A program made the translations under genes and the position numbers. A stretch of 25,781 nt of DNA from Microthyrium microscopicum (taxonomy: Eukaryota; Ascomycota; Dothideomycetes; Microthyriales; Microthyriaceae). Below the pieces are notes generated by a model, which saw nothing but the letters and a program-made list of their open reading frames with translations, was not told the origin of the DNA and ran no database searches. Position 1 is the stretch's first letter, and every line of letters begins with the position of its first letter. The stretch lies in NCBI GenBank assembly GCA_010405405.1, contig MU004243.1:1115580-1141360 (forward strand), read 5' to 3'. Shown piece after piece: positions 598 through 25,351 of the stretch.

Positions 598-690
598 TAT
601 AGCTTCTTTCTTTACTTCTCTTATTCTATACTTCTTTTTTTCTTCTTTACTTTACTACCTTTATTCTTTTCTCTTTTACTCTTTATTCTT
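598..690. repeat. Pyrimidine-rich tract
   Basis: Nearly all bases on the plus strand here are T or C, interrupted mainly by single A residues inside TTACTT or TTATTC steps. The bias is local: flanking DNA has a mixed T/A strand composition. It may be a degenerate CTT-type microsatellite or a polypyrimidine tract of a dead element. I see no coding content in it. Confidence 0.5.
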
Positions 691-718
691 TATAATAGTT
701 AATATTATAGTAATATAT

Positions 719-738
719 AAAATAAATAAATAAATAAG
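719..738. repeat. Short AAAT microsatellite
   Basis: About four to five uninterrupted AAAT/AATA units. This is a simple-sequence repeat with no other visible feature. Confidence 0.6.
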
Positions 739-1802: not shown

Positions 1803-2062
1803 AAAATATTATTATATTTATTTAAATTAATTCTTAGAGGTATATAAAATCTATAACTTAGTATAATATACTACTTTAGGGTTATACTTTTTATATATTT
1901 CTTTATAGTAATAGTAAAAGAAATATAATATACTAATTTAGAGTTATAACTTTTATATACCTTTTTATAATAATAAGAAAGAATTATAATATACTAGTCC
2001 TAGGCTATAGTTTTTATTTATCTTTTAGGCTTTAGTAGTAAAGAAAGTATAATATAGTATTA
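1803..2062. repeat. Tandem repeat of ~62 bp with internal dyad
   Basis: The string AATATAC recurs at 1865, 1927 and 1988, and a mutated AATATAG at 2051, giving a period of 61 to 63 bp. Each unit runs from a TATACT-containing start through a T-rich arm to a complementary AAAGAAA-TATAAT arm, so each unit can fold back on itself. Units differ mainly by transitions and small indels. A more divergent copy may begin at about 1737. Function unknown; it resembles a decayed minisatellite or repeated transposon end. Confidence 0.6.
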
Positions 2063-2904
2063 TACTTATAATAAAAAAAAATATTAAGGTATATATTATA
2101 TAAGTTATTAATATAGATAAAATTTAAAAACTAGAAGTAGAATAATTATATATATTAGAATACTTAAGGCTAAGAAGATTTAGCTTAGAGATACTAGAAC
2201 TTTCTAAACTAGAATCTAGTATTTAATTTTTATATAATAACTATAAGTAAGAAAGGTTAGAAAACTAGGCTATTACTTACTTAAGATAGACTAGTTACTT
2301 AATAGTAATTTTATATTAATATTAATAACTTTAAGAACTTACTATATATTATAATTATAACCTTAATATTTTAATTACTATTTATAATAATATAGTAATA
2401 GTAGGAAATACCTTAATATAAGTAAGTAACTTTTAGTTTCTAAGTTAGATATAGTAACTAACTAAGCGTTACTTTACTCTTACTTAATTCTATATAATAA
2501 ATTAAAATATAAATACTTTATATACTAAATTTTTATCTTTCTCTTTTTATATCTACTAATACTTAATCTATATTTACTATATCTATTATTATAAGCTTTA
2601 TAACTTCTTTACGTAAAGCCTCCTACCTATATAAAATAATAGAAAAGTAAATAGAAGAGTAAATAAAAAGGCTAATAAAAGAGTAAATATAAACTAAACT
2701 AGATATATACCTTAAAGAATTACTTAGATTTTATAACCTTTTATAATTAATAATCTTACTAAAGCTAATACTAGCTAATATAATAGTATAGGATATTAAA
2801 TTATAGAAAGATTTTAATCTTAATAATATAAACTAGCTATATAACTTTATTTAAACGTTTATAATTCTATATATATATAGTTAACCTTCCTAACGTTTTA
2901 TAAC

Positions 2905-2970
2905 TAATAATAATAATAATAATAATAATAATAGTAATAATATTAATAGTAATAATAATAATAGTAATAA
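2905..2970. repeat. TAA trinucleotide microsatellite
   Basis: About 22 trinucleotide units of TAA with a few TAG and TTA interruptions. It contains no CA or TG and would itself be unaffected by RIP, so its present length may reflect slippage independent of the mutation process around it. Confidence 0.9.
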
Positions 2971-3408
2971 AGGTTTTAGGTATTTAGATACGTTAGATAA
3001 GAATAACTTAGACTTAGAGAATAATATAGACTTAAAGGATTTAAGTTCTAATAAAGATTAGAGTTATAAATCTTATAATTAATAGTTAATATAATTTAAG
3101 TTAAATTATAAAATAATATCTATACTTTAGATACTAAAGTAAATAGATAGATTTAAATTAAGATTAATAAATTTAATATTTAACTTCTTTATTATATTAA
3201 CTACTAATATAACTTTCTTTTACTAATACTAATTTATAATAATAAGAATATAATAACTTACTATAGTAATAATTATAATTAAGATATAAATAGATTAAGA
3301 ATATATATAGAAATAATACTAGTATAAGTATAAATAATAATAATATATATAATATTAATAATATTATTTAATAAATAATATTAGAAAAGTTAACTAGACT
3401 AAACTATT

Positions 3409-3680
3409 AGTACTCTAAACTCCTAGCTAACTCTAAGCTAATTCTAGGTTAACTCTATATATAGATAGGCTAATATTTAAACCCTAGGCTAGTATTTAAA
3501 CCTAAGCTAACTATAGACTAATCTTAGGCTAACTCTAGGCTAACCCTAGGCTAATTCTATATATAAGTAAGCTAATATTTAAACTCTAGGCTAATTTTTA
3601 AACTCTAGGCTAGTATTTAAACTATATACTAAACTAGGCTAATCTTATACTAATTTTATATTAATTCTATACTAACCCTA
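3409..3680. repeat. 12-bp and 15-18 bp minisatellite based on CTAGGCTAA
   Basis: A degenerate array built on units like AACTCTAGGCTA (12 bp), alternating with longer units in which ATTTAAA replaces part of the unit. The best-preserved run lies around 3520-3560. Towards 3640-3680 the unit drifts to AATTCTATACTA, the same unit that forms the array at 6973-7062. No coding content is visible. Confidence 0.75.
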
Positions 3681-5120
3681 CGCTAATTTAATATTTAGTA
3701 TTAAAAATAGAATAGAAGGTAATATATAGAAATAAGTTAAATTTCTTAGAAATATATATACTACTCTAGTAGTTTATATAAATTATAAAATATTCTAGAT
3801 AAAGCTTAAAATATATATTTTTAACTTTATATAAGAAAGCTTTAATAAAGATATAATACTTTATATAATTACTAACCTTTTTTATAAGCTTAGTTATAAG
3901 TAGTAATCTAGTTTAATATTATTTTAAAATATTAAATAACTAGTCTAATATTTACTAAATAGAGCCTACTAGATTAATATTATTATACTAGGTAAATTAC
4001 TAGTCTAAACTATAATTTAATAATTTTTAAACTTATAAAACTTAGTAAACTTTATAGTTTAATATTAGCGCTTAATAGTAGAAGTACTTTAATAAGTAGT
4101 TTACTTTTAGTAGTTAATAAATATAACTAGTTAATATAGATACTTTATTTACTTAATCTAGTTATAAATTTAAGTATAAATTAACTACTAATCTTATAGT
4201 TATTAGTAGAAGTAGCGTACTTAGAAGTAGCTTTAGTACTACTTATCTTATAAAGAGTAGTTCTTATAGTAGACGTTATAGTTAAATATTAGTAGAACTC
4301 TAATTACTATTAAAGACCTTTAAACTCTTAAATTACTTAATTAGCTTAATAATAAAATTATTAATAGCTTTTTTACTAAGCTTTATAAAAAGGCTAAGTC
4401 TAAACTTACTAAATAGATAAAAATAGTAGAAACTCTAATTAAAGATAATATTCTATAATATTATATACTTAATACCTATTAGTTCTCTAAAATATAATAA
4501 TAAAATAGTATTAAAAAGATTACTTACTAAATAAAGCGCTAAAAAATTAGTAGAAAAAATTTTCTTAGTATTTATAAACTCTTTATTTTAATTTATTAAC
4601 TTAGGTAGTTACTAGACTCTACTAACTATTCTTTCTTAATAACGTTAAGTACGTTAGTATAACTCTTTATTTATTAGTAAAGGACCTATTCTTACTTTAG
4701 CTAAAGAAATACTTTAATATAAGTTAAGTAATACTTAGAACGAGAGTAAATAAATATTTAAGAAAGTAGAAAGTAGTTATTAATAAAACTTTTTAAATTA
4801 TAGTACCTTTATCTTTATAAATACTTAAGCTACCTTTTATACTAATAATCTACCTAATATTTTTCCTAACTAATATAATAAAGTAATATAATAACTAATT
4901 AGTTTAATTATCCTTTATAGTAGCTTAAAAGGTAACTTTAACTACTTAAAGGCTTAGTATAGTAGCTTTTATTTAGAAACTTTATAAAATATTTCTAACT
5001 ATCCTTTTTATAGAGTATAATATTAGTAGAGAGCTTATCTACTATAGAGGATAGCCTATTTTTTTCTTAATCTAATATATTTTTCTTATTAATATATATA
5101 TATTTCTAACTAAAGATTAT

Positions 5121-5368
5121 CCTTTTATTAATAATATAATCTCTTACTATTACTAATTCCTATTATTAGTAATATATCCTATTATTATAGATATATTCTA
5201 TTATTATAGATATAGCCTCTTATTAAAGATATATTCTTTTACTAGAAAGATATCCTCTTATTAATAATATAATCTCTTACTATTACTAAATCCTATTGTT
5301 AGTAACGCATCCTATCATTATAGATATATTCTATTATTATAGATATAGCCTCTTATTAAAGATATATT
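5121..5368. repeat. Tandem duplication of ~115 bp at 133-bp spacing
   Basis: The segment 5121-5235 is repeated at 5254-5368, a spacing of 133 bp. Each copy is itself made of units of about 20 bp of the type ATTCTATTATTATAGATAT. Copy 2 keeps TG, CA and CG at about 5297-5317 where copy 1 has TA, so the second copy preserves a less mutated state of the same sequence. Confidence 0.8.
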
Positions 5369-5719
5369 AAAAAGACTAATAGCTATAGCTTAATCTACTT
5401 TAGTAGTAATTGCTATATATAAGCTAGTATAGGATAAAGAAGTTACTATTAACTCTAGTCTCTTAGTATAGATTAAGAAGGACTAGCTAGTAAGAGGGTA
5501 GATAGTAGTTTCTTAACTTCTAGTCGTTTTAATTGCCTTTTATTAACTATAGTATTTACTTATAAGCTATTTCTTTAAGTATCTATAATATATCTAACGA
5601 CTTAGACTTTCTATAAAGAGTAATAAGTATACTTAATACTATATAATTAGACTAGAATAAGCTAAGTATTAGAATAATAGTAGTATCTTAGAAGAAATAG
5701 TTACTTAGAGTTATATAAG

Positions 5720-5785
5720 TATAATATTAATAAAGTTATTTTAAAAGGTACGTATAATATTAATAAAGTTATCCTAAAAAGTATA
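5720..5785. repeat. 33-bp direct repeat, two copies
   Basis: The string TATAATATTAATAAAGTTAT starts at 5720 and again at 5753, a period of 33 bp. The two units differ by C/T and G/A transitions only. Confidence 0.7.
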
Positions 5786-5884
5786 ATAGCTATAGTATTA
5801 ACTTTATTATTACTAAGGAAGAAGCTATTTTTTAATACTCTACTTCTAGAAGTTCTACTAAGACTAATTTACTATTACTAATAT

Positions 5885-6275
5885 AGCTTACCTATCTACT
5901 TAAATAAAGATACTTTTAATACTCTATTCTAGTATTATAAAGTATAAAGTATATTTTAACTATAGGCTCTTTATAAGTAACTATAATTTAGAGATAAAGT
6001 AAGTTTTCTATAGAATTTAATCTTAGCCTAGTTTAGTAATAATTACTATATATAAACTAATATAAGATAAGGAAGTTACTATTAATCCTAGTTACTTAGT
6101 ATAAGTTAGAAAGGACTAGCTAGTAGTATAGAAGGCTACCTATTTACTCTTAATACTTTATTTTAGTATTATAAGGTATAAAGTATAATTTAATTATAGG
6201 CTCTTATAAGTAACTATAATTTAGAGATAAAAAGGTTTTCTATAGAATTTAATTTTAGTTTAGTATTACTATAGT
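5885..6275. repeat. Tandem duplication with 234-bp period
   Basis: A block containing AGTATTATAA at 5931 recurs at 6165. The shared part runs through TATAGGCTCT, AAGTAACTATAATTTAGAG and TTTTCTATAGAATTTAAT. Differences are mostly transitions plus a few small indels. Short matching sequence upstream of each copy (from 5885 and 6131) extends the homology. Confidence 0.75.
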
Positions 6276-6690
6276 TACTACGTCCTTTGTTTTTATAGCT
6301 ACTATATTCTTTACTACTATATTTATCTTTTCTACTTTAAGTATAGTTATAAATAATATAATCTAGCTTACTATTTATAAGAATAGTTAGTATATTCTAC
6401 TTAGTAATAATTACTATATATAAGCTAGTATAGAATAAGGAAGTTACTATTAATTCTAATATAAGTAGTAAGATAGAATAAGTAATAAAATAAAACGTAA
6501 AATTAAGGTAAATAAAGCTATTTAGAATAATAAGAAACTTATTTATATTTTATAAGTTCTTTCTAATATCTTAATTAATATACTTACTTCTCTATTAGAG
6601 TTATTATTCTATTATATACTACTAATAAAGAACTTATCTTTATTTTATTATATCTAGTATTATTAGTAAGATATATATTAAGTATTAGTA

Positions 6691-6850
6691 AAGTTAACTA
6701 TATAACTACTATATAGTAATAAATTCTTAGGCTATAGTTTTTAAGTACTTTTTAAACTATAGAGTATATATATATTTTAAGTACTATAAAATATAAAGTT
6801 AACTATATAATTACTATATAGTAATAAATTCTTAGGCTATAGTTTTTAGG
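6691..6850. repeat. 105-bp spaced direct duplication
   Basis: A segment of about 55 bp starting AAGTTAACTATATAA at 6691 is repeated from 6796 almost identically, ending in CTTAGGCTATAGTTTTTA. Related but poorer matches follow near 6900-6945. No gene is visible. Confidence 0.75.
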
Positions 6851-6972
6851 TTTTTCTTTAATTAATATAATTAAACCTTTTTAATAATAATAAAGGTTTA
6901 GTAAAATTAACTCTAAAGCTACTATATAGTATAGAATTTTAGAGCTATACTTTATAAAGACTTCTTTATATT

Positions 6973-7062
6973 ACTCTATACTAACTCTATACTAACTCTA
7001 TATTAACTCTATACTAACTTTATATTAACTTTATACTAACTCTATATTAACTTTATATTAAT
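6973..7062. repeat. 12-bp minisatellite, about 7.5 units
   Basis: Clean tandem units AACTCTATACTA, with variants that differ by C to T (CTTTATATTA). The period is exactly 12 bp. The same unit ends the array at 3409-3680, about 3.3 kb away, so the two loci share a source. Confidence 0.9.
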
Positions 7063-7545
7063 ACTACTTAAATTCTAAACTATCTATATTTATTTTATAA
7101 TTAGTACTTATTATATAAACTAATATTCCTTAAGATATTAATTTTATATACTATCCTAATCTTATTTATACTATTATATATATATTAAATATCTTTATTT
7201 AAATATAATACTAGATAGTACTAAGGCTTATTTAAATTCTATTATATTTAATAGAATAAAACGTTATAATTATAGTAGACTCTCTTTATAAATTATTAAG
7301 AAATTAGTAATCTTATTAAAGAGTAGTAGCTACTACTATATAAGCTTAAAACCTAGATATTATTATTCTAAGCTTTAAGAGTAGATAATAATATAGAATA
7401 TAATTAAGGCTATTTAAGTATAATTAAAGTATACTTTTAGTAGTTATATTATAACTAATTCTAACTAAATTATAAGAAGTTATATTTAATTTTCTAACCT
7501 TTTTACTTATCCTACTACCTTAAGTCTAGATAGTATTAAGCAACT

Positions 7546-7929
7546 TCTAACTACTATTATTAAATATTGGATAGGCATAGGAGATTTAATATAGCCTATA
7601 TACTTACTAAGAGAAGGGTATCTAAGATTTAAAAAGTATTAGGTAAATATCTTATATAATAAATAACATTTAAATTAAAATACAAGTAAGCTAAAAGATA
7701 TAGAATTACAAAACAAAATAAACTATTAATTTAGAATAGATAGAATTTAATAGAAGTAGGTATAAAAATCCTAAGCAAGATAAGTAAATCTAATATTTAA
7801 TAAGGTAAACATGTAGGGATTTATAAATTAGCTTAACTTGTTACTATAGCTTATAATATAAATGTTATAAGTATAACTAAATAATTAACATCTAGATTAG
7901 ATTAGTATTTAATCTAATAGTAAGCCTAA
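7546..7929. other. Start of partially RIPped segment; no gene seen
   Basis: CA and TG reappear from about 7547 onward (GCAACTT, TTGGATAGGCATAGG) and stay present at low level to about 25351. Within these 384 bases I see neither a recognisable reading frame, nor a tandem repeat, nor a clear terminal repeat. It may be the edge of an element distinct from the saturated tract to the left. Confidence 0.5.
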
Positions 7930-8070
7930 AGGGGCATACCGCTCTTAATAATATTACCTACTACGTTTAACTTATAGTGTATTACTACTAACCTATACTA
8001 CTTTAAGAACTTCTAAACTTCTAAACTTCTATTTTAGTAGTAGAAATTATCTTTATTTATAATAAGGTTA
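7930..8070 (+). repeat. Partial copy of the helicase-gene 5' region
   Basis: About 90 bp from 7930 to 8022 aligns well with 14701-14813, just before and at the apparent start of the helicase pseudogene. Shared blocks include GGGCA, CTCTTAATAA, ATTAC, TACTACGT, TAACTTATA and TTTAAGAACTTC; the downstream copy has an extra ~18 bp. Weaker similarity continues to about 8070. No helicase coding sequence follows, because the eight-unit array starts at 8133. It is best read as a dispersed 5' fragment or shared promoter-side repeat. Confidence 0.6.
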
Positions 8071-8132
8071 TTAATATTTAGTAAAGTAGCACTTTTATAT
8101 AATACTATAGCTTGCTTAGAAGGGTCTAGTAG

Positions 8133-9009
8133 GCTATACGTAGGTTTTAGTATAGTTATAGGGTTATATTTTAGGTAAAGATATTAGTTCGTAAGGAAGC
8201 TTACTAAATTTAGTAAAGGAATATTCTTTATAAGGACTACTTACTTATAATATCTCTCTTAAGGCGAGCTATATATAGATTTTAATATAGTTATAAGTAT
8301 ATATTATAGATAAAGATATTAATTCGTAGGAAAGCTTACTAAATTTAGTATAGGAATATTCTTTAGGAGGACTATACTTATAATATCTTTCCTTAAGTAG
8401 GCTATATATAGATTTTAGTATAGTTATAGGGATATATTATAGATAAAGATATTAATTCGTAGAAAAGCTTACTAGATTTAGTAAGAGAATATTCTCTAAG
8501 CTATACGTAGATTTTAGTATAGTTATAGGGATATATTGTAAGTAAAAATATTAGTTCGTAGGAAAGCTTACTAAGTAAGGAAATATTCTTTAAGCTATAT
8601 ATAGATTTTAGTATAGTTATAAGAACGTATTATAAGTAAAGATATTAGTTCGCAGAAAAGCTTACTAAGTAAGGGAATATTCTTTAAGCTATATATAGAT
8701 TTTAGTATAGTTATAGAGACGTATTATAGATAAAGATATTAGTTTATAGAGAAGCTTACTAAGTAAAGGAATATTCTTTAAGCTATATATAGATTTTAGT
8801 ATAGTTATAGGAACGTATTATAAGTAAAGATATTAGTTCGTAGGGAAGTTTACTAAGTAAGGAAATATTCTTTAAGCTATACATAGATTTTAGTATAGTT
8901 ATAGAGATATATTATAGGCAAAGATATTAGTTTATAGGAAAGCTTACTAAATTTAGTAAGGAAATATTCTTTAGGAGGACTATACTTATAATATCTTTCC
9001 TAAAATAGC
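8133..9009. repeat. Eight-unit tandem array with 94, 99 and ~133 bp units
   Basis: Units begin with GCTATAYRTAG at 8133, 8268, 8401, 8500, 8594, 8688, 8782 and 8876, and the last ends near 9009. Unit lengths are 135, 133, 99, 94, 94, 94, 94 and 132. Long units contain TTACTAAATTTAGTAA, a perfect 16-bp palindrome, and a 34-bp block near GGAGGACTATACTTATAA. The 99-bp unit keeps the palindrome but lacks the 34-bp block; the 94-bp units lack the block and five bases of the palindrome. A GTTCG core survives in most units. The period is not a multiple of three in the commonest class, so this is a noncoding satellite, plausibly subtelomeric. Confidence 0.92.
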
Positions 9010-9089
9010 TTTAATAAATAAAATAACACTACGCAAGAGTTTTAATTAGAGTAAATACTATAAGGCTTCTTCCTTAAAAGAATAAAAGT

Positions 9090-10440
9090 ATAGTTAGGGA
9101 TTTATAACTATAGTAAAGTTTAGTAAAGCTTAGTAGTAGTAGTTCCTTACTAAATTACCTTATAAGTAAGCCTTAGCTATAATGTCCCTTTAGTAGTATT
9201 ATTCCTTTCGTATATATTATCCCTTTAGGTTAGGCGTTATATCTTAGTAGTAAGAAGGACGTAATTCCTTACTAAATAATATTATTCTAGTACATTGTCC
9301 TTTTTGCTTACAACTACCTTACTAACTTCTAGTAAGTCTAAGTTGCTAAAGACTTCTATCCCTTTAGTAATAACGTCTTCTAATACTTTTCTACTACTAA
9401 TTTATATCTCTAAAAGTAATATTTAGCTTTTAATATAATTGTACAAGCTTTAAGACGTTAATATAGAGTATTTTAGACTTCTCTATATATATTATATAAG
9501 GTAAAGTTACGTTTTAGTAGGCCTACATTCCTTAGCTTATATACTAAACTATTATATATACTATTTAGCTTACTAATTAGTAGAACTACTAATACTAAAT
9601 ACGTAAGTATTCCTTATAGATACTAATTATCTTATAAAACGTATTTATACTTAAATATCTAAGGGGCTAGCTTACTATTATAGAACACTATACTATAGAA
9701 AATATAAAAAAAGTAAGAAAATAATATAAAATTAGTACTAAGATAGTTAGTACTACTATATAATAATTCTATAGAGCTAAATTATATATAAGTTTATCTT
9801 TCCTTATTAAATTAAGTATAACTAATACAATTAGGTAATAGAATTATAGTAGAGAAGGTTTAGTAAAGTAAAATTTTTTAGTATTAAGAGAGAGTAGGAC
9901 TATAACTCTAATCTAGCTATTATATTTAAGTAGCGCTAAGCTAGTTTATATAGTAAGTAGTACGTATACCTAAGTCTTCTTAAGCTACTCTATAGCTATG
10001 TTAAGAACTAGGTAAGTAGAGAAATAATACTTTTTTAGCTCTTTTATAGAAGAAGGAAAAATTAATTAGCTAATTTAGCTAAATAATTATTATTTTACGT
10101 AACCTAAAATTATATAGAATTCATAGTAATTATTTAAGCTTATACTACATAGTAGTTTTATACTTACGTAGTCTTGCTATACTAAATCTTAATAATTTAG
10201 TAGTAAGTATTACTTTAGAAATAACATTCTACTACTATAGAGTAAGTCTTCTTAGTTAAAAGGCTCTCTCTATTTCTTAATCCTATATTCTCTAGTATAG
10301 TATACTTTTATAGCTATCTAATTTAAATATAAAGCTTACTATGCTATTCCTTTCTTAGGACTACTTAAGAAAATATATATAGTAAAATACTTTATAATAA
10401 AATGCTTAGTATTTTCCTTATAGCGTACGCTCTATAGACA
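9090..10440 (-). pseudogene. Possible minus-strand coding relic, unidentified
   Basis: One minus-strand frame can be read from about 10440 down to about 9100. It has runs suggestive of protein, rich in Lys, Arg-derived and hydrophobic codons, and a Lys/Glu/Val-rich segment at about 9430-9290. Stops are nearly all TAA or TAG, as RIP would create. However, their density, roughly one codon in nine, is about what I would expect by chance in DNA of this composition. I recognise no catalytic motif. A tyrosine recombinase or transposase was considered and could not be supported. Treat this as an open question, not as a gene call. Confidence 0.22.
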
Positions 10441-10444
10441 ACCT

Positions 10445-10648
10445 ATTAGAATACGTTAAGGTATTTATCCTTTAATAGAGAGATACCTTATATAAGGAAT
10501 TAAGATATTATTTATTAAAATACGTTAAGGTATCTATCCTTTATAAGAAGATGCCTTATATAAGAAATTAAGATATTATTTATTAGAATACGTTAAAGTA
10601 TCTATCCTTTATAAGGAGATACCTTACACGAAGGATTAAGATATTATT
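10445..10648. repeat. Three tandem copies of a palindromic 68-69 bp unit
   Basis: Units start ATTAGAATACG or ATTAAAATACG at 10445, 10514 and 10582. Each contains a dyad: TAAGGTATCT-like left arm, a short centre around CCTTTATAAGG, and an AGATACCTTA-like right arm, followed by a shared AATTAAGATATTATTT tail. The third copy keeps CACG where the others have TATA. Each unit could extrude a hairpin. The array lies immediately upstream, in minus-strand terms, of the possible minus-strand relic. Confidence 0.85.
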
Positions 10649-11350
10649 TTACTTATTATATATATTTATTTTAATAAAACAAAAAGAATAACTTATAGTT
10701 ACTTTTCAAAGTACTATTTAATAATTACTTAGCTTTAAGGCGGCTAAAACTAGTAGAGATTACTAGTCTAACCTATCTCTATAACCTAGTCTAGTTTTCT
10801 AAATATATAGGTATTAACTAGTTAGGATAGCTATAAAGCCTTTCTATTACTAAGTAGTATTATTTAATACTACGTATTACTTAGGTAAGTAGAGCTTTCT
10901 ATAATAAAGCTTATTAAGTAGTATATTTATACTAATACTTAGTAAAATTGCTATAGAGGCATCTTAGTAGATCTTAATTAATATTAGGACTCTTTTAAGG
11001 CGATAATATTATAATAATCTTTATAACTATTTATACTTTAGCATTTATTATTAGAGATATCTTATTATACTTCATTAGTTACTTTTCTCTAATACGCTTT
11101 CTAGAGAAGATTAAAATAGTAAAGTATTTTTTATATTAATTTTTTTCTTTTAAAAAAAAGTCTTAACGTCTTTAACGTTAATACGTTTTATATTAATATA
11201 TTACATTACGCTAAGTTAATTTATAGTAATATAGGTAGTTTTTAACTATTAATTAATTAGTATTTTAGTTATACTAAATACTATAACTACTTACTACCTA
11301 GAAATACTATATATAGAATATAAATAATATTACTACTCTTTATTAATTAT

Positions 11351-11382
11351 AGCCTACTATAGACTACTATCTATAGTAGGCT
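11351..11382. repeat. Perfect 12-bp inverted repeat, 8-nt loop
   Basis: AGCCTACTATAG at 11351-11362 is exactly complementary to CTATAGTAGGCT at 11371-11382, with an 8-base spacer. It contains no CA or TG. Flanking AATTA and TAATTA strings extend a weaker symmetry. Role unknown; it could be a decayed element end or a cruciform-forming site. Confidence 0.8.
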
Positions 11383-12982
11383 TATTAATAATAACTAATT
11401 ACCTCCTTATTTAGAGATTTTATCTTATAAATAGGCTTACTAGTTATAATAAAGTAATTCTAATATACCTTTTAAGTCTAATCTCGTTCTTTCTTTACCT
11501 ATTTTTTTAACGATACTTTCCTAAGGCTATAGTTCTATATAACCTATTATACTTACGTAGTAATTATACTCTAAGCTAGGGTATAGTAATTAGGTTATTC
11601 TATATATTAGAGGAGCTTACGTTTTATAATATAGAGGAAAGTTAGTTAAAAACTAGTATATTATTTAAATACTATTTAAACTAAATACTAGCAAGTTAGC
11701 AATTAGGAGAAAGGTTACCTAAAAACTAAAGCTAACTACTACAATTTTCTACTATAATCTTTAATTAAACTAGGCTATATAAAGACTTTCTAATATTATT
11801 ATAGCCTTATTATTATTATATATAGAGATAATTCTACGTAATACCTTATATCCTTAGGAAGTATAAGTACTATATTAAAAATAATATAAATAGTATAAGT
11901 AGGTTATAGGATTATTAACCTATATAAACTACAAGCTCTTAATTTTACTAAGAGTATTCCTATTTACAAAAAGTAATCCTACCTTAATTTAGTATTAATA
12001 GGTATATCTAATACGTTAGCCCTAACGCATAATAGAGGTCACACTCTTTACTTTAGTATAAAGTATATATTTTTTCTAAGAAGGTTAAGTTTATTAGGTA
12101 AAGACTCTAAGTAGCCTTATTAAGGTAATTTAACTATATTATTTATTAGCTAGTAGTTATACTTTAGATATACCTAACTTTTCCTTAGATAGAAATCTTA
12201 ATATATATTATTAATTTAAAGTAGTAAATATTATTATTAAAAGAATATAGACATAGAAGCCTCTAAAAAAATAGAGAAACTTTATTACTTAGTATATAAT
12301 TAGTAGTATATTATAAAAAAGGCAGAAATATGCTTTCTATTAATATATACTAGATAACGTAAATAAATATTAATAAATATTATTATTAGTTTATTAATAT
12401 ATAGAAGCAAGCTAGTTAACTACTTCTAAATATTTTTATTTAAGTAGTATTCTCCTTAAGTTAAAAAGTACTAGTCCCTAGTAGATAAAAGTAGCAACTA
12501 TAGTATATATCTAACTACTAGACAATTAAGTAGTAAAAGAGTAGCTTAGAATTAGCTAACATCTAAAAATATATTACTAGCTATAGTAGTTACTAACTAG
12601 TCGTTATACTTATTTATAAAGAAATATTATAAAATCTAAGTAGTTAAACTTTTAACTTATAGGGCTTATATATCTATCTACTTTATTACTTAGTAATAAT
12701 TAATAACTTTAAGAACAAACTAAGGGTTTATTTAGAATATCTAGGAGTATAGTATAGTAAGCCTATATTTTATATATTATAACTAATAGAAATAAAAATA
12801 CAAAAAGCGTATTATAAGCTATCCTTTGCTAAATTTAAGCTTATAATCTACGCTTTAAGTAAATTCTAAATTTACTCTATTATCTACTAATCTACTTTAA
12901 GACAGTAGGAATTACTTTTAGCATCCCTATTTATTTTAGTAGTTATTTTTTAATATATTTACTTTTACTTATTATTACTACG

Positions 12983-13024
12983 CCTAGGATAGCAAAGTAA
13001 GTATACTACTTTGCTTACTCTAGG
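12983..13024. repeat. Imperfect inverted repeat
   Basis: AGCAAAGTA at 12991-12999 pairs with TACTTTGCT at 13007-13015 around a 7-base loop. The flanks CCTAG and CTAGG extend the stem with a few mismatches to 12983 and 13024. The arms keep CA on one side and TG on the other, so both arms escaped RIP together. Confidence 0.75.
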
Positions 13025-13305
13025 TACTTATTATATATTTAGTTCTTTTATCTTTTTAGGAAGTTTTCTATCTATAGAGATAGTATTATATTAATAGGTT
13101 AAAGCTAATTATAAACTTAGGTATATATTATAGGTATTAATTAGAGTATAGCTAATAGTACTTCTTTATAAAAAGATAGTTATATTTAACGTAATAGTAT
13201 ATTTCTACTAAAGACTATATTATATATATACTAATAGAGTACTAGATCCTTATCTACTATATTATTAAACAAGGCAATACTTTACGTAGAAGAAATATAT
13301 ATTAG

Positions 13306-13512
13306 TAACAAGATAACTAATAAGTAAGAATATATCTACTTCCTTTTACTATTAAAAAGAATACTAACTTAATATTAGATTAATAAAAATCTTAATTTAG
13401 GTAAGCATTAGCTTCTTTAGAAGCTATATTAGACCCTAATTATTCTCTTAGTTTACCTAGGAGGTAGTTAAGGTTTAATATTAAAAAATAAAGACTTAAA
13501 AATACTAAGGAA
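13306..13512 (+). repeat. Long direct repeat, copy 1
   Basis: This ~207-bp block is repeated at 14426-14635 in the same orientation with high similarity, mostly C/T and G/A differences (for example GCTTCTTTAGAAGC here against GCTCCTCTAGAGC there). This copy is the more mutated of the two. It contains an internal dyad: ATTAGACCCTAA at 13428-13439 faces TTAAGGTTTAAT at 13468-13479, the latter altered by two transitions from the perfect complement. Together with copy 2 it brackets the large palindrome at 13702-14398. Confidence 0.85.
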
Positions 13513-13701
13513 AACTAAGAACTAAAGATATAAACTAAAAAAAAAATATAGACTTAAAGCAGACCTAGGTATATTATTAGCAAACTACCCCTTATAAGTA
13601 ATAAGTTTATAAGTACTATTAATTTATAAGCAAATTAAGAGCAAGACTAACATATAGGTTAAATAAGAGCAGGACTAATCTATAGCTTAGCTAGCTAAGG
13701 G

Positions 13702-14398
13702 AACTAAAATTAAGAAGGAATTACTTAAGTTAATATATAATAGCTTATAAAATAAGACCTTTACTAGACAAGCTAAGTTACTTACGCTAATTAATAATAA
13801 TTAGCATTAATACCTATAAAAGCAAAAAGAATATTAATCCTACTTATATTGCTTTTTACTATAAAGAGATAAAAAAGAGAGATAGCTACGTTTCTCTTTT
13901 TTATATATAATAATATAGTAACTCTTAATATAAGATTTAGATACGTTAAAACGAAATAGGATCTTTTAGTAATATAATAAATAATATTATAATAAGATTT
14001 TATTTCTAATATAATAAATAACGTTATAATAGAAATAGAATCTTATTATAATATTATTTATTATATTACTAAAAGATCCTATTTTATTTTAGCACATCTA
14101 AATCCTATATTAAGAGTTACTATATTATTATATATACTATCCCTTAATATTCTACTAAACCTTAATATCTAGCTTATTAAGGTTTAGTAAGACATATATA
14201 GTTAGGAACGTAGCTATTCCTCTTTTTTATTTCTTTATAGTAAGGAGCAATATAAGTAGAACTAATATTCTTTTTACTTTTATAGGTATTAATGCTAACT
14301 ATTATTTATTAGCTTAAGTAACTTAGCTTATTTAGTAAAGGTCTAATTTTGTAAGCTATTATATATTAACTTAAGTAATTCTTTCTTAATTTTAGTTT
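13702..14398. repeat. Imperfect ~700-bp palindrome (long inverted repeat)
   Basis: The left arm, from AACTAAAATTAAGAAGGAAT at 13702, reads as the reverse complement of the right arm, which ends CTTAATTTTAGTTT at about 14398. Matching pairs continue inward through GCATTAATACCTATAAAAG, a block ending ATTGC with a nearby AGAGATAAAAAAG, TAACTCTTAATATA, GGATCTTTTAGTAATATAA, to a centre near 14013. Mismatches are chiefly transitions, and the right arm carries ~60 extra bases. A local stem AAAAAAGAGA/TCTCTTTTTT lies at 13871-13902. No protein motif is visible. The form fits a foldback or MITE-like element, or an inverted duplication. Confidence 0.85.
14153..14189. repeat. Perfect 13-bp hairpin inside the right palindrome arm
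   Basis: TACTAAACCTTAA at 14153-14165 is exactly complementary to TTAAGGTTTAGTA at 14177-14189, with an 11-base loop. It lies in the ~60 bases present in the right arm of the large palindrome but missing from the left arm, so it is either a small palindromic insertion or a piece deleted from the left arm. Confidence 0.8.
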
Positions 14399-14425
14399 CA
14401 TTATTCTATATTATAGTAGGAAAAT

Positions 14426-14635
14426 TAACAACGAGATAACTAATAAATAAGAGTGCATCCACTTCCTCTTAATATTAAAAAGAATACTAACTTAATATTA
14501 GACTAATAAAAATCCTAATTTAGGTAAGCATTAGCTCCTCTAGAGCTATATTAGACCCTAATTATTCTCTTAGTTTACCTAGGAGGCAGTTAGGGTCTAA
14601 TATTAAAAGATAAAGACTTAAAAATACTAGAGGAA
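14426..14635 (+). repeat. Long direct repeat, copy 2
   Basis: Second copy of the block at 13306-13512, less mutated: it keeps TGCATCCAC and GGCAG where copy 1 has TATATCTAC and GGTAG. Its internal dyad is intact, ATTAGACCCTAA at 14550-14561 against TTAGGGTCTAAT at 14590-14601. The repeat ends about 125 bp before the first codons of the helicase relic, so it occupies the position of the gene's upstream region. Whether it carried promoter function cannot be told from the sequence. Confidence 0.85.
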
Positions 14636-14838
14636 GTATAATAGCTCTAGATTAATTAGGGAAATAGGCATAGTTAGTAATACACCATTATATAAAGGAA
14701 AGGGCACGCTACTCTTAATAAGATTACGTACTACGTCTAACTTATAAGATAAAGCCTAAACGCTATAATATTACTAAGACGAACTATATACTTTTAAGAA
14801 CTTCCTATTTTACTATTTAGAATCTATAAATTATAAAT

Positions 14839-15195
14839 ATAGATTATTTTAAGGCAATCTTTAAGAAATATCTATAATATAAAGTTATAGTCTATTCTAA
14901 ATATAGCTATATAGTCCTACTAATATTATTTTCTAGATATATTAAAAAACACTATAAAAGCTTATTACTAACTACTAAGAAAGAGCTTATTTAGAAACTA
15001 TAACTCGTTACGAGACTTATATAGAATATTAATAAAGTAGTATTTCTAACTAAGACTTATCTACTAATTCTAAAGATTTTAATTTATTATAATAGATAAA
15101 AATGCTTAGAGTATAGGTATATATATAAAGGCTAAGTAATTTATATTTAAGAGCATTATTAAATTAAGTATAGCTAGATTAATCTAAATAAATAA
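14839..15195 (+). other. OrsD/DUF3505-like zinc-binding region of the helicase relic
   Basis: Two Cys/His clusters remain in frame. In the first, YKVIVYSKY starts near 14878 and has TAT codons at 14893 and 14902 where the family has Cys-x2-Cys; a His codon CAC survives at 14950, with TAT codons at 14938 and 14953 for flanking His. In the second, TGC (Cys) survives at 15103, TAT at 15112 stands for the second Cys, CAT (His) survives at 15154 and TAT codons at 15157 and 15169 for the last ligands. TGT/TGC and CAT/CAC to TAT/TAC is exactly what RIP does. This spacing matches the N-terminal domain of OrsD-like fungal proteins, as I know the family. Confidence 0.8.
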
Positions 15196-16938
15196 GGTCG
15201 TTAGATAATTAAAATACAACGAAATATATTAAATTAGTATTATCTATAAAGAAATAATATTTATTATTAAAAGATCTTTATACAGCTACCTTAGGACTAA
15301 ATTATTAAAGTCTATTAACTACTAGACACCTAGTAAGCAGCTTAGCTACATCCTAAGTACAAAATAATTTAATATTAAGTATTAGCAACTTAGTAAAGAA
15401 AACAAGAAAACTAATATAAGGAATTAATTAATATAAAGAGCATAATAAGCTATCTAGAAGCTAATATATAGGTTAAGCATATAGAATAGGCATAAATCCT
15501 ATAATTATATAAATAAACGTAGCTAATTAGTTTTATACGACCTATTAACGTCTAAATAGAGGCTAAACTCGTAAAAATTAGTAGATTAGTCTAATAAGTT
15601 ATCTAAAATACTATTAAGAATTTATAAAAAAATATTATTAGTTAAATAGTACTTAAAATAATTAATTAAAAGATTTTTAGTAGTAATAGCAAAGATAGAG
15701 CTAGAAAGCTAATACTAGTTTAATAATTAGCTAAAATAATTTAAAGATATAGTAATATCTAGTTATAGATTATTTAATTTGTTTAGCGCATATATAAGGA
15801 AGAATAGCTTAAGCTAACTATATCTAATAAAGAAGGCTAAAAAAAGTATTAAAACCTTACTAAAGAGAGGAAAGTAAGGCTAGACTTTAAGTTAACTAAA
15901 AGATAAGATACGCTACTTAATAATATCTAGGACTTATTAAGTATATTACTAAGTAGGGAAGTAAATAATAATTTAATAGACGTAGAGTTTATAAATAAGA
16001 GTAAAGATAAGAGTATAAAAATAAAATTAAAAGAGGAAAGAAAAAAATTAGATAGTTTAGTTTTAGATTTATTTCTAGCTTTATTAGATTATAACATTAG
16101 TAATATTACACATAAGAGTATTTTTATTACTATAATTATAGTTATTAGTTTAGAAAAAGATAGTAGATAGAAAGATCTATTATTATTTACTCTACGTTTA
16201 TTAGCTATTATTACACTTAAGCATATATTTATATTATATAAAGCTATATACAAGAGAGTAGAAAGAATTACTAAGTTATTAAAAAATAAAGAAATATATA
16301 AAAAAGATATAGAAGATATAGCTAAGTAGTATTATAAAATTATTAAGTAAATAGTAAAGAGGTTTATAGGATTAGTAGTAGTAAGGTATATTCTAGGTCT
16401 AATTAACTATGTCTTAAAGGTACGTATATATAGATTAAAGATTTAATATAATATAATAGATTAAGAAGTAATTAGCTAGATAGATAATAAGTTATTATTT
16501 AGTAAGGTACGTTTCTACTTTAATTATGATTTAGAGAATATAATAGCTAAAGTACTAGTAGGTAAGGTATACTTTAGTATATTATAACTTAGTTCTATAG
16601 TAGTAAACTTATTAGAAGAGACTAGAGAGCATCTCTATAAAGACTTATTATTATTTACAATAGTTATTAATAATAATACTATTAAATAGTAGAAATAATA
16701 TAAATTACTAATAATTTACTAGAAATATCTAGAAGATAATGTATCTAAAATATAGTAAGATTAGAATTTTTTAGTTAATAGAAGAAATACTTAAAATAAT
16801 ATATTACTTAAAGAAGCTAGAGACTATTAGATTCTAGACAATTAAGTACTTACTAATTTAAAGATTAATACGAAGTTTTTACGCATAATACTAAATAAGA
16901 AGGAGATACTTAAAGTATATCTAGATTAAAAGCGGATG

Positions 16939-17226
16939 TTTAAGTACTAAGTAGTAATAGAGAAGATAAAAGAGAAGTTATTAGTTCTAATCTATATAAC
17001 AAGTAGCTAGCTAGCCTAAGGCATAGAAATCATTATAACAAAATTTAAAAATAGGCTAGCTAGTTTATATTAAGGAATTTTTATTAAGAATAGCTTAATA
17101 GTATTTATTACTAAATACTATAAAGGTTTTAATTTATTAGCAATCTTAAAGGTAGTTTATTAATATATACTATTAGAAGTTAGTAAATTGTTATATTATT
17201 ATTTATAGCTTATAAAACCTTTTTAG
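16939..17226 (+). other. Central conserved module of the helicase relic
   Basis: This part reads KEKLLVLIYITSS then, at 17002-17031, a degraded form of the G-G-Q-P-A-R-G-x-E-I motif (SS, stop, LA, stop, GIEI). It is followed by a hydrophobic IVFIT run, TKYYKGFN at 17110-17133 (family: TRYHKGFN) and YL-stop-LIKPF at 17200-17223 (family: YLWLVLPF). I know these motifs from the region upstream of the helicase core in fungal telomere-linked helicases; their biochemical role is not established. A further family block, LDLIANK-x-ASYNTQT to RKVSTT, lies at 17737-17880. Confidence 0.75.
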
Positions 17227-18069
17227 GTATATATATTAGAAATAGCTAGAGTAGAGATAATAAAGAGTAAGTACTTATAGCTACTAGTAAGTAATAAAAA
17301 GGAGTATAATATAGATAAAGTAGATATTAATAATTAGGAAGAAAGGGAAGATAAAGATAGCTATATAGCTATAGAATAAGAGATATAAGGGTTAAATAAT
17401 AAAATAGAAGACATAATAGTACTTAAAAAGGATAAAGATAACAATATAGTAAAGTAGGATAAAGAGAAGAGTATTTAATTATAGTAAAAAAGTAAGGAAT
17501 CTATAGAATTTATAAATAAAGAATAGTTATTAATTTAAGTTTAAAAAGTATTAATTTAAGAGATAGAGAAGCATCTAGGTATATAAATAATAATGTTAAT
17601 ATAGTAATATATATATATTATAATTATATATAAGTATATTAAAGATAGATTAGTAGAACGCATAATTATAAAGTAGGAAGACAATTTAGGAATAGAAGAA
17701 GTATTAAAAACTAGAGTAGAGATAAGTATAGGTAAATTAGATTTAATAGCTAATAAATAAGCTAGTTATAATACGCAAACATTAGTAATAATATATATAC
17801 GTAGCTATAGTAAAGCGTTTAGTATATTATATACTAGGTAAGAGGCATTTAGAAAAGTAAGTACTACTTAGTATAAGGTATTACTATTACTATCTACGCT
17901 TAAAGAGGAATAGTAGTTAGAAAAAAGAGGAATACAAACCTTAGTAAAAGTAAGTATAGAGGATAGTATAATATTACGCTAGTCATTATTACGTTAAATT
18001 AATATAAATATATAGTTAGAAAAGTTAGCTAGTAAAGATATAAAGTTTTAGAGTATTTAAAAGCAAGGG

Positions 18070-19215
18070 ATTAAAGTAGTTATATTACGAAAAAGTCCTA
18101 TTATTATAATTATAAAAATGGAAGGAGGTAAAAGTTTATTATTTATATTACTAGCGTTATATAAAAGTAGAGGAGTTAAGGATATAACTATTATTATTAT
18201 TCTATTTATTACTTTAGAGAAGAATATAATAACGAGATATAGAGATTTATAAATTAATACTATAGAGTAAAACCCTAAAGGTTAGCAAGATTAGGTAAAT
18301 ATTATTTTTATAATACTAAAGGCGGCTATAGGAAAGGCTTTTTTATAGTTTTTAACTAAGCAAAAGTAAATTAGTTAGTTAGATAGGATTATATTTAATA
18401 AGTATTATACAATATTAGATGCTATAGCGCTAAAGAAGTAGAGGGAAAAGATGCTAGATTTATAGCTATTAATTAAGTAAGAGATATAAATAGTTTACTT
18501 AATAGCGATATTGCTACTAAGGGATAAAGAAACGTTTAAATAAGTAATAGGTTTAATAAGTATTAATCTAAAAACTATTATATAGCTATAAGAGTTAATA
18601 ATACGTAAGAATATTACGTATAAGGTTTAAAAATAGAACTAAAAGCAAGAGAAAGAGGTAGAAGTTTTAAAGTTAGTAGTAAATAAGTTATTAGTTAAGT
18701 ATAAAGAAGAGTAAGGGAAGATTATTATATATATTAGTAGGTCTATAGGAATAATTTAAAAGATAACAAATACGTTAGGCGTAGTGTATTATTATTAGAC
18801 GTTATTAAAGGATATAAAGAAGAAGACATTAGAGTAGTTAATATAAAGAAGCGTATAGGTGTTTATTTATTTAAGTATAATAGGGGTAGGTATTAATAGG
18901 CTACTAGTTTATATAGTTATATATCAAGGTAGGACGAGAATAATATAAGACTATATATAGAAAAGTAGATAAGTAGGAAGGTAAGAATAACTAAGTAAGG
19001 TAATTATATTATATTAGGTTATAAAGAATGTTTAAAGAAAGGAGCAAGATAGGTTAGATAAGTAGGCTAAGAAAAATATAGTAAAGTTAATCTAAACTAA
19101 GCACTATTAGTAACGTATAATTAACTTAGTACTTAATAGTAATTAGACTAGATAATGATATTAAGAAGATAAAGAGAGATATAATAATTACGACGCTAAA
19201 TACTAAGAACGTAGA
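18070..19215 (+). other. RecQ helicase core of the relic, motifs I to VI and Zn region
   Basis: Motif I (Walker A) is KMEGGKSLLF at 18115-18144, with ATG and the GKS intact but the usual TG-x-GKS changed. Motif II, DECH in the family, reads NKYY at 18397-18408 (IIFNKYYTILDAI): every changed residue is a G to A or C to T change. Motif III YLIAILLLRDKETF (family YLTATLPPRDE-TF) is at 18496-18537. Motif IV lies in KIIIYISRSIGII at 18718-18756; motif V region IGVGIN at 18880-18897; motif VI, SGRAGRDG in the family, is at 18958-18987 as a broken KSR-x-VGR. The ATPase could not work with motif II in this state. A former Cys-x2-Cys is at 19180-19191. Confidence 0.9.
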
Positions 19216-19500
19216 AGAGAGGTAGCTTATTTAAGTAAAAATAGATAAGTATAATAAAGATATTAGTAAAACTTATTTATTTAATCTATTACGATAGCAA
19301 AGCAAATACAACCCTATTAGTTTCTAGAAGAATAAGATTAAATTACAAATAATATATAATAAGAGTTTATATAAATTCTAAAAAAAGATTATAACGACTT
19401 TAAATACGCTACATTATTACAAAGAGCCTAAGTATAAGAAGAGTAATAAAGAGATAATAAAATTACTAAGGAGAAGTAAGGAATAGTAGATATATTTTAA

Positions 19501-19640
19501 AAATAGAAAAATATTAGCTATTAGTTTTGTATAGTAGTTAGAGGTTATAAGGAAGGAAAAAGAATACTATTACAAGAGTATTAAGGCTATATATTAAATA
19601 GCTACTAAAGACTAGACGCTTAATTAATTAAGAAGAGGGT
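19501..19640 (+). other. C-terminal cysteine cluster of the helicase relic
   Basis: In the same frame a TAT codon at 19519 and a surviving TGT at 19528 form a Cys-x2-Cys spacing, followed by RGYKEGK and a TAT codon at 19579. A Lys-rich segment KKRVAKAKKAYKDKR follows at about 19630-19674. It resembles the small Cys-rich tail seen after the RecQ core in this family, but the ligand set is incomplete and the call is tentative. Confidence 0.45.
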
Positions 19641-20339
19641 AGCTAAGGCTAAAAAAGCTTATAAGGACAAAAGAAATACGTAAGCTATATAGACATTACT
19701 TATATATTATTTTATATATAGTACGCTATAAGAACTTTATAATAGCTAGACTTTAATAAGATATAGTTATTTTAAAAAGAAATCTAGCTAAAAGAATATA
19801 TAGACCTATTAATATAGTAGGCTTATTATTAGAGTTATTATAGTATTATTATATATTTATTAAGACGAGACTTCTACTTAGATAATAGAAGAAATATAAA
19901 AGGAAGGAATTATAAACGTAAAAGCTATAAAGTAGATATAGTTAGGAAGTAGAAGAATATTATATAAGATTAAGTATAATTAAATAGTAGAACTTATAAT
20001 AAAGTTTAAAGGATATATAATTACGTAGTAAGATATATATAAAGCTAAATAGTAATCTAAGAAGCACTAGGCTAAAGGTTATAGTAAACGCATATATTAT
20101 ACTTTAATTAGATAACAATAAAATACTATATATATTAAATAATAATACAAGTATAGATTAGCTTATCTATATAGATAGTATCTAAATATAGTTTAGTATA
20201 TAATACTATATATATAATAGTTTTAATGCAGACATTTAGCTAAGGCAAAATTTAATAGATAAGCTTAAAAAAAACTATATAAAATGTAAGAAGTTCCTAC
20301 CTACAAATTATTAAACTTAATAACAAAAAGTATTATTTA

Positions 20340-21330
20340 TATTAAGGATAATATTACTAAGTTAGTAACTACTACTATATAGTATTATAAAGAAATTATA
20401 ATAGTTATAAGCAGAAATTAATAAGGCAATATTAGAAGGACTTTATAAGAGTTAACTATAGTAAGAACGAGGCTTTATTATAGACTCTAAAGATAAAACT
20501 AATAAAGAATCTAGTAATCTAGATAGATTTATAGTATCTAATAATAAAGAAAAATATAATAAAGAGCAAAACGAAGAATAAAAGTATAAGTAAGAGTAAG
20601 GAGAAGAGAATAGTAAGAAATATAATATAAGGTACGAGGAGAATAATAAGAATAACTCCTATTTACTAAGTATTATAGATAATAGTACTAAGAATACTAC
20701 AAAATACTAGCAGCATAATTAACTATAATAGTAGAAATATATTATTTTTTTATTATTACTATCCTAATACGAAAGCAAGTAAAAAGTAAGTACTAATAAC
20801 ATCCTAGAAAATAAGACTAAATTAGCTAATTTATAATATTCTATACGAAATAGGAATTACGTAGAAGAAGACTAAATAGTAATAGAAGTTATAGTATTTT
20901 AAATAAAACAAATAAACGAAGCTTAAATATAAGAATAATATATTATATAGCTTAAAGAGCAATTAGAACAAGTTCGTATAAATAAGAAATATAAGTTTTA
21001 TATAATAAGAAAAGATATTATAAATAGAGATAAGTATAAATAGATAGACTATATATAAGAATAAGCTATTAAAGAAGGTATTTAAAAGGGAATTAATTTT
21101 AGGCTTTAGGAAGGAATATAACTATTAATTTAAGCAAAGAATATAAATAGTTATAATATATATTATATACCTTATAGTATATATAATTATTAAATTTTAG
21201 TTAATAGTATTAACTAGCAAAAATCTAAGAATAATAGCTATATTTATAAAGAATAGATTTTAAGAATAATTATTATAGCTTTAATAATAAACTTAGAGAA
21301 TATTTAAGACTAAGTATATATATAAGTTAA
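20340..21330 (+). pseudogene. Acidic, coiled-coil-like coding relic downstream of the helicase
   Basis: A second plus-strand frame, one position off the helicase frame, can be followed from about 20340 to 21330. Near 20411 it reads AEINKAILEGLYKS; from about 20520 to 20690 it is very rich in Glu, Asp-derived Asn, Lys and Gln-derived stops, as in a charged low-complexity region. At 20951-21000 it reads LKEQLEQVRINKKYKF, a heptad-like segment. A less charged part follows (about 21060-21320, with IQPLIQAKNINSYNIYYIPY-like sequence). Stops are again TAA/TAG replacing Gln or Trp codons. I do not recognise a family. It could be a second gene of the same element or the far C-terminus of the helicase after a shift. 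Confidence 0.45.
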
Positions 21331-21490: not shown

Positions 21491-22372
21491 GTGTACTAGC
21501 TTCTATTAAATGCAATAGCTACTACTAAGTACGATAGCTACTACTAAGTATAATAGCTCCTATTAAATGCGATAGCTACTACTAAGTGCAATAGCTACTA
21601 CTAAGTATAATAGCTACTACTAAGTATAATAGCTACTACTAAGTATAATAGCTCCTACTAAGTGTAATAGCTCCTACTAAGTACGCTAGCTTTCATTAAA
21701 TACGCTAGCTTCTATTATACTTACTAGCTCCTATTAAGTATAATAGCTTCTATTAAGTATAATAGCTCCTATTAAGTACGCTAGCTCCTATTAAGTACGC
21801 TAACTCCTATTAAGTATAATAGCTCCTATTAAGTATACTAGCTTCTATTAAGTACGCTAGCTTCTATTAAGTGTGCTAGCTTCCATTAAGTGTGCTAGCT
21901 CCTATTAAATATAATGACTACTACTAAGTATAATAGCTACTACTAAGTGTAATAGCTCCTACTAAGTATAATAGCTCTTACTAAGTATAATAGCTTCCAT
22001 TAAATATAATAGCTCCTATTAAATGCGCTAGCTTCCATTATACTTACTAGCTTCCATTAAGTATAATAGCTTCCATTAAGTGCGCTAGCTCCTATTAAGT
22101 ACGCTAGCTTCTATTAAATATGCTAGCTTCTATTACACTTACTAGCTTCTATTAAGTATAATAGCTCCTATTAAGTACGCTAGCTCCTATTAAGTACGTT
22201 AGCTCCTATTAAGTATATTAGCTTCTATTAAGTGCGCTAGCTCCTATTAAGTACACTAGCTCCTATTAAGTACGCTAGCTCCTACTAAGTACAATAGCTC
22301 CTATTAAATACGATAGCTCCCATTATACTTGCTAGCTCCTATTAAGTATAATAGCTCCCATTAAGTACGCTA
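21491..22372. repeat. 19-bp minisatellite array 1, about 46 units
   Basis: Head-to-tail units of 19 bp of the form AGCTCCTATTAAGTACGCT. Two subfamilies alternate: units ending CGCT and units ending TAAT or CAAT (the change includes a C/A transversion, so it predates RIP); further variation (CCT/TCT/ACT, GTG/GTA, TGC/TAC, AAGT/AAAT) is mostly transitions. A distinct variant containing TATACTTACTAGCT recurs at about 21717, 22030, 22133 and 22323. The unit length is not a multiple of three, so it is not coding. Begins about 160 bp after the acidic relic. Confidence 0.95.
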
Positions 22373-24442: not shown

Positions 24443-25351
24443 TCGTTAAATATAATAGCTACTACTAAGTGCAATAGCTACTACTAAGTATAATAGCTAC
24501 TACTAAGTGTAATAGCTCCTACTAAGTGTAATAGCTCCTACTAAGTACGCTAGCTTCTATTAAATATACTAGCTTCTATTATACTTACTAGCTCTTATTA
24601 AGTATAATAGCTCCTATTAAGTATAATAGCTTCTATTAAGTACGCTAGCTCCTATTAAGTACGCTAGCTTCTATTAAGTACGCTAGCTCCTATTAAATGT
24701 ACTAGCTTCTATTAAATATACTAGCTTTTATTAAGTGTAATAGCTTCTATTAAGTGTAATAGCTCCTACTAAGTATGCTAGCTCCTACTAAGTGTGCTAG
24801 CTCTTATTAAATACAATAGCTTCTATTAAGTATAATAGCTCCTATTAAATATAATAGCTTCTATTAAATGTAATAGCTTTTATTAAGTACGATAGCTCTT
24901 ATTAAGTATAATAGCTCCTACTAAGTACAATAGCTTCTATTAAATATAATAGCTACTACTAAGTATAATGGCTTCTATTAAGTACGATAGCTTCTATTAA
25001 GTATAATAGCTCCTATTAAGTGCACTAGCTCCTATTAAGTGCGCTAGCTCCTATTAAGTACGCTAGCTCTTATTAAGTACGCTAGCTCCTATTAAGTACA
25101 ATAGCTACTATTAAATATAATAGCTACTACTAAGTATAATAGCTTCTATTAAGTATAATAGCTCCTATTAAGTATAATAGCTCCTATTAAATATAATAGC
25201 TCCTATTAAATGTAATAGCTTTTATTAAATACGCTAGCTTCTATTATACTTACTAGCTCCTATTAAGTATAATAGCTCCTATTAAGTGCGCTAGCTTCTA
25301 TTAAGTATACTAGCTTCTATTAAATGTAATAGCTTCTATTAAATACGCTAG
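24443..25351. repeat. 19-bp minisatellite array 2, about 48 units
   Basis: Same 19-bp unit, same orientation and the same two subfamilies as the array at 21491-22372, including the TATACTTACTAGCT variant at about 24574 and 25247. It starts with a partial unit (TTAAATATAATAGC) and ends at AATACGCTAG, after which the sequence becomes fully RIP-saturated. Short runs of units are repeated in the same order within and between the arrays, as expected if several units were amplified together. Confidence 0.95.

Follow-up and report, generated by a model that had tools for sequence, protein, structure and literature searches.

Foldback and MITE-like elements carry long, near-perfect inverted arms. The locus described here, in the fungus Microthyrium microscopicum, shares such arms and differs from those elements in occurring in one lineage only, with a second insertion site not found. 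RIP-mutated subtelomeric RecQ helicases are already known as well: X26 of Stagonospora nodorum is a subtelomeric RecQ helicase repeat degraded by repeat-induced point mutation (RIP) (PMC3017866), and telomere-linked helicase regions occur in Fusarium oxysporum (PMC12857005). Our locus is similar to both in having RecQ-like helicase copies near chromosome ends, some of them RIP-degraded; the portions of those two accounts drawn on here do not describe a palindrome flanked by direct repeats. Insertions accompanied by tandem duplications are reported to arise in the repair of DNA breaks (reviewed in PMC7407515, which also recounts rice insertions of 10-1000 bp), as do small tandem duplications (PMC8355091). 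As far as the sections of these papers used here go, extra DNA at a break and a local target duplication are features in common with our locus, where the subtelomere is RIP-mutated and a 208-bp duplication encloses a palindromic insert of ~911 bp. In yeast, inversion of the spacer between inverted arms by template switching has been described (in the part of PMC8604942 cited here). We did not find the exact order of repeat, palindrome and repeat in the literature looked at, in searches not aimed at that layout, and we do not claim its absence from print.

Layout of the unit and its palindrome

The window is the whole stretch of 25,781 nucleotides analysed, which forms the terminal part of contig C14 (1115580-1141360 of 1141360), and it was compared with the genome of 36.9 Mb in 20 contigs. 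The initial annotation described two ~208-bp direct repeats enclosing a ~700-bp palindrome, and we find both at nearly the same coordinates (Table 1) and far above chance: the best ungapped 110-base matches in the region score 99 (direct) and 102 (inverted), and first-order Markov shuffles of 13200-14700 never exceeded 67 (n=40). Folding, also proposed there, gives -240 kcal/mol for 13690-14410 as single-stranded DNA, against a mean of -59 for shuffled sequences (n=20, z -38). Rfam gave 0 matches in the window at gathering score.

Table 1. Features of the window around the repeat unit
Feature	Position	Strand	Remark
Left-edge sequence of subtelomeric repeat	7547-8034	.	Also repeated at C12 contig start beside telomere repeat
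Left part of ~11.3-kb TIR element (host repeat)	8035-13512	+	RIP-type mutated
94-bp tandem array inside host repeat	~8131-8973
Direct repeat copy 1	13301-13512	+	Continuous with host repeat upstream
Insert, ~911 bp	13513-14423	.	Absent from 14 of 17 host-repeat copies found
Outer left arm of palindrome	13696-13895	+
Inner left arm of palindrome	13902-14014	+
Inner right arm of palindrome	14024-14136	-
Hairpin segment, ~67 bp	14137-14203	.	Right arm only, all three copies
Outer right arm of palindrome	14204-14403	-
Direct repeat copy 2	14424-14635	+	Host repeat runs ~100 bp further in C4 copy
Subtelomeric block with broken RecQ-like helicase	14649-21018	+	Common to C4, and to C16 up to that contig's end
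RecQ-like helicase core, many stops	18043-19014 (approx.)	+	3.4 kb downstream

Three loci, on C14, C16 and C4, carry the whole unit. Their direct repeats are 90-93% alike within each locus, with 90.6% identity over 213 columns in C14, and enclose an insert made up of a left spacer of ~185 bp, the palindrome and a right spacer of ~20-27 bp. The palindrome arms are 92-94% alike overall; in C14, the outer pair is 91% and the inner pair 93% alike, with 9 nt at the centre. Arm against arm, transversions number 4 in 318 columns (C14), 5 in 318 (C16) and 8 in 312 (C4), and the arms are therefore not freshly made. The hairpin segment in the right arm is possibly a tiny nested insertion, or else reflects a loss from the left arm. 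An assembly artefact is unlikely, judged from the assembly rather than from reads, as the three copies lie 7-10% apart and have one layout.

Within the inner 235 bp (13902-14136), the central part runs in the opposite orientation in C14 from that in C16 and C4, as read from the one C14 assembly. Aligned forward, the inner 235 bp of C14 differ from either of the other copies by 5 transversions and 2 gaps; inverted, they differ from C16 by neither a transversion nor a gap, and from C4 by 1 transversion and no gap. C16 and C4, both forward, are separated by 1 transversion and no gap. Over the central 27 bases, compared ungapped, C14 matches C16 at 27 positions inverted and 16 forward and matches C4 at 25 inverted and 18 forward, while C16 and C4 match at 25 forward and 18 inverted. 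The flip spans at least ~20 bp, with no further fixed transversion in that part of the arms to mark how far out it reaches; it presumably happened on the C14 branch. An inverted centre of this kind is a known outcome of template switching or of recombination between inverted arms. In the inverted repeats of the yeast study, so far as its examples are cited here, the centre likewise flips and the arms stay, with arms of 10-16 bp compared with more than 100 bp at our locus, where recombination would be as likely.

The host element and its single and double sites

The 208-bp repeat is an internal piece of a ~11.3-kb, RIP-mutated element with terminal inverted repeats (TIRs). Read whole in three single-copy loci on C5, C1 and the interior of C4 (18-20 kb each), the element measures 11.2-11.4 kb and has inverted ends of 132-214 bp that start with TATGACG (TATAACG at the right end in C5). 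By eye, short duplications flank it, namely CGAAC in C1, GTCTACC in C4 and CCCGTC/CCCGTT in C5; in the region examined around a fourth copy, on C6, no such inverted ends were found. G+C per kb is ~0.17-0.26 within host elements versus 0.42-0.55 outside. Depleted CpA and TpG together with excess TpA are the mark of RIP, and this is the pattern found: the observed/expected ratio is 0.04-0.39 for CA and 0.03-0.11 for TG in five of six stretches, 0.10 and 0.41, respectively, in the sixth (a minisatellite), and 1.37-1.87 for TA in all six. A six-frame comparison of two stretches of the C5 copy, covering all but ~1.4 kb in the middle and the ends, gave no Pfam match.

As a separate observation, the C16 matches to window positions 11003-11026 (L041/L042) are split by a ~1.2-kb insert with a G+C of ~0.43 that is not RIP-mutated. 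It is SINE-like: its head resembles a tRNA by eye, a duplication of ~14-24 bp flanks it, and a tail similar to its own lies near 940-1020 of L044.

Our copy searches score the best candidates only, so the counts are lower bounds. Direct repeat copy 2 as a query found at least 20 places, comprising six copies in the three double loci and 14 single copies. The 2 kb just upstream gave at least 27 matches, 17 of which reach the junction and represent the same three double and 14 single loci; the remaining 10 are partial copies or short minus-strand matches. At least 17 host-repeat copies thus reach the site: three (C14, C16 and C4) carry the unit, with the 208 bp twice around the palindrome, and at least 14 have the 208 bp once and uninterrupted, the empty sites that the initial annotation had envisaged. 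In all 14 single loci, the 208 bp lie within an unbroken aligned stretch of host repeat of at least 2.0 kb; ten are unbroken over all ~3.2 kb compared, and the other four (L017, L024, L025 and L027) have a break in the match, or its end, at some other point in the flanks. Copy 1 is continuous with the element upstream in all three double loci. After copy 2, the element continues in C4 for ~100 bp and is followed by the shared helicase block; in C14 and C16, ~97 bp are missing at this point, with 5 bases of overlap at the junction, so the C14 and C16 blocks are probably sisters sharing a deletion.

A further copy of the palindrome or insert was not found in the genome at E up to 10, in a search that skips very common words. 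The only other match to the insert, 89 bp of AT-rich sequence on C10, was rejected as a relative of the palindrome, since the 1.3 kb fetched there hold no long palindrome and a best inverted match of ~35 bases. An ungapped purine/pyrimidine scan, which ignores transitions, detected no insert relatives at 41 of 45 in the host element, the helicase block and other fetched regions (nine sequences).

In a multiple alignment of all 20 copies of the 208-bp repeat, one column separates two groups: the six direct-repeat copies all carry A or G, and the 14 single copies all carry T. This difference is a transversion and therefore not RIP, and because both repeats share it and the single copies lack it, it points to a local duplication of 208 bp in the ancestor of the block, which would make the two repeats sisters. 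Their sisterhood rests on this one column, which conversion could mimic. A 1-base insertion is present in copy 1 at all three loci and in copy 2 in C4 only, and another transversion is private to copy 2 at all three loci; conversion between copies can explain the former, and later change the latter. Mean transversions over ~211 columns are 3.3 between copy 1 and copy 2, 2.0 among single copies, and 4.3 for copy 1 (two of them at junction columns) and 3.6 for copy 2 against the single copies; copy 1 and copy 2 differ by 1-2 transversions in pairwise alignment and by 3-4 in the multiple alignment, where two are at junction columns. From these alignments, the repeats do not appear clearly younger than the block, and transversion numbers would date the duplication poorly. 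Copies of the whole unit differ by 88-113 transitions versus 5-15 transversions. By our own count, 21-36 transitions per comparison are in CpA/TpG context (33 of 93 for C14 versus C16); as most are outside it, classic RIP sites do not by themselves account for the remaining differences.

These data bear on two other origins. If the unit were an LTR-like (TRIM) relic, the 208-bp repeats would be long terminal repeats with the palindrome as the internal region between them, and each of the 14 single copies would be a solo LTR passed on with the host element; this would account for the repeat-internal-repeat layout and the many single copies. We consider this very unlikely. The direct repeats belong to the host rather than to an element at varied sites, and all 14 single copies are at one place in one element, implying only one insertion ever; the transversion common to both repeats and absent from the single copies is the opposite of the pattern expected from an old LTR pair; and no clear TG..CA ends, primer binding site or polypurine tract could be seen by eye in the three copies, where RIP blurs TG and CA. 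The shared transversion also speaks against a chance junction, in which two independently truncated element copies would overlap by 208 bp around an unrelated palindrome. The subtelomeres here are much rearranged, which speaks for such a junction, but for the cut ends of two copies of an 11-kb element to overlap by so little, and in the same orientation, is improbable, and we regard this origin as decidedly unlikely.

A shared subtelomeric block with a broken helicase

A helicase reading frame had been placed ~125 bp after copy 2, and this was not borne out: the window has no open reading frame of at least 100 aa (ATG, GTG or TTG start), and stop-to-stop frames of at least 80 aa number two, each on the minus strand, with the one at 13791-14042 lying within the palindrome. 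What starts at ~14649 is not a reading frame; it is a sequence block common to three chromosome ends. The RecQ-like frame within the block has 36 stops in 380 codons in C14. With stops read as X, phmmer against PDB sequences returned seven matches, all ATP-dependent DNA helicases including human Q1 (RecQ1), the best with an E-value of 1.8e-5 over residues 55-378, in keeping with a RecQ-type core. The helicase region had no match in Pfam, and a genome search with the DEAD model did not list this place. The helicase frame carries stops in all three block copies, and the C16 contig stops inside the helicase.

With 4 kb of the helicase block as the query, we recovered C14, C16 and C4 plus nine short matches of 40-102 bp. 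All three copies lie within ~50 kb of a contig end, a position near chromosome ends; at the C14 end, no telomere repeat was seen. Since the upstream transposon, the unit and the helicase part are all ~90-93% alike among the three copies, they represent one block with one origin, copied to three ends, and the palindrome and the helicase co-occur because the block was duplicated as a unit. The initial annotation proposed checking whether the unit always precedes helicase copies: it does so in the three block copies, and no palindrome match was found near the one other helicase relative found (C4:1775321, 33% identical).

The initial annotation further raised a structured replication or recombination site of a helicase element. 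A conserved functional site of this kind (an origin, or a recombination or processing hairpin) would be consistent with the unit lying beside the helicase in three of three block copies, and with the single flip of the centre, which indicates that the arms interact. However, the three co-occurrences amount to one block of common origin, the helicase frame is interrupted in every copy, and between loci the unit is no more conserved than its surroundings (90-93%). The proposal is thus not supported, and we find such a site extremely unlikely.

Other repeats were observed in the same regions. Window positions 14699-14815 resemble the left side of the repeat near 7930-8050 (73-90% over 49-120 bases, via the C12 and C11 copies), and by this similarity the start of the helicase block may be related to that left side. 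In L043 (C12:1-8000), a telomere repeat at the contig start is immediately followed by ~2.9-kb tandem units equal to window 7547-10355, two of them full and a third cut off at the telomere. The block at window 1-7547 changes sides relative to the helicase: it is on the inner side in C14 and on the side towards the telomere in the C4 end (L038, L040). In C4, an interstitial TTAGGGTTAGGG occurs between the helicase and this block. Arrays of a 19-bp minisatellite occupy 21497-22368 (~46 copies) and 24446-25342 (~47 copies).

Origin of the unit

An insertion with duplication of its target, one of the possibilities in the initial annotation, fits both the single, uninterrupted state of 14 of 17 host copies and the private transversion of the flanking copies. 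We think that the unit probably goes back to an insertion of the repair type, made in an old transposon and accompanied by a 208-bp target duplication, and that subtelomeric exchange spread it. The process would have started with a break or replication accident in a copy of the TIR element near a chromosome end. Repair would have put in the ~911 bp of captured palindromic DNA and given rise to the flanking 208-bp duplication of element sequence, for example by the filling in of widely spaced nicks, or by a template switch with a return to a point 208 bp upstream. A subtelomeric block bearing the helicase would have taken the place of the element's right part, and the complete block would have been copied to three chromosome ends and undergone degradation by RIP-type mutation. 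Later, the palindrome arms may have paired, flipping the centre in the C14 copy. Against this reading, a 208-bp duplication is long for fill-in, and no donor of the palindrome is known. The only junction microhomology that we saw by eye is a possible AGGAAA at the two ends of the insert; C14 and C4 have it exactly, and C16 differs by one base at the right end.

The same AGGAAA could instead be a ~6-bp target duplication, left when a foldback (MITE-like) transposon inserted at the junction of an earlier 208-bp tandem duplication in the element. A palindrome with a 9-nt centre resembles a foldback element, its long terminal inverted repeats form most of the insert, and TA dinucleotides can be seen by eye beside the arm ends, although TA flanks are meaningless in such AT-rich DNA. 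Foldback and MITE elements would be expected as several dispersed copies with target duplications, whereas the three copies here belong to one block and others were not found; moreover, insertion exactly at the tandem junction would be a coincidence, and the spacers of ~185 bp (left) and ~25 bp (right) are left without explanation. We therefore view these two steps as rather unlikely. Of the term 'foldback element' used in the initial annotation, the long inverted arms stand; a second palindrome copy was not found, and the arm ends are without a convincing target duplication. There is also a slim chance that, near chromosome ends, the palindrome acts again and again as a cruciform, the arms of which would pair, flip the centre and break, with the breaks driving both block exchange and the 208-bp duplication.

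Under the repair-type insertion that we favor, the block has the look of an old scar of repair, copied from one chromosome end to another, rather than of a working element. What on the raw sequence was an apparent new mobile element appears, with the genome at hand, as an old insertion scar that lies in a dead transposon and was multiplied through exchange between subtelomeres. One of the three copies, with its flipped centre, preserves a small natural trace of the interaction between long inverted arms in RIP-mutated DNA.
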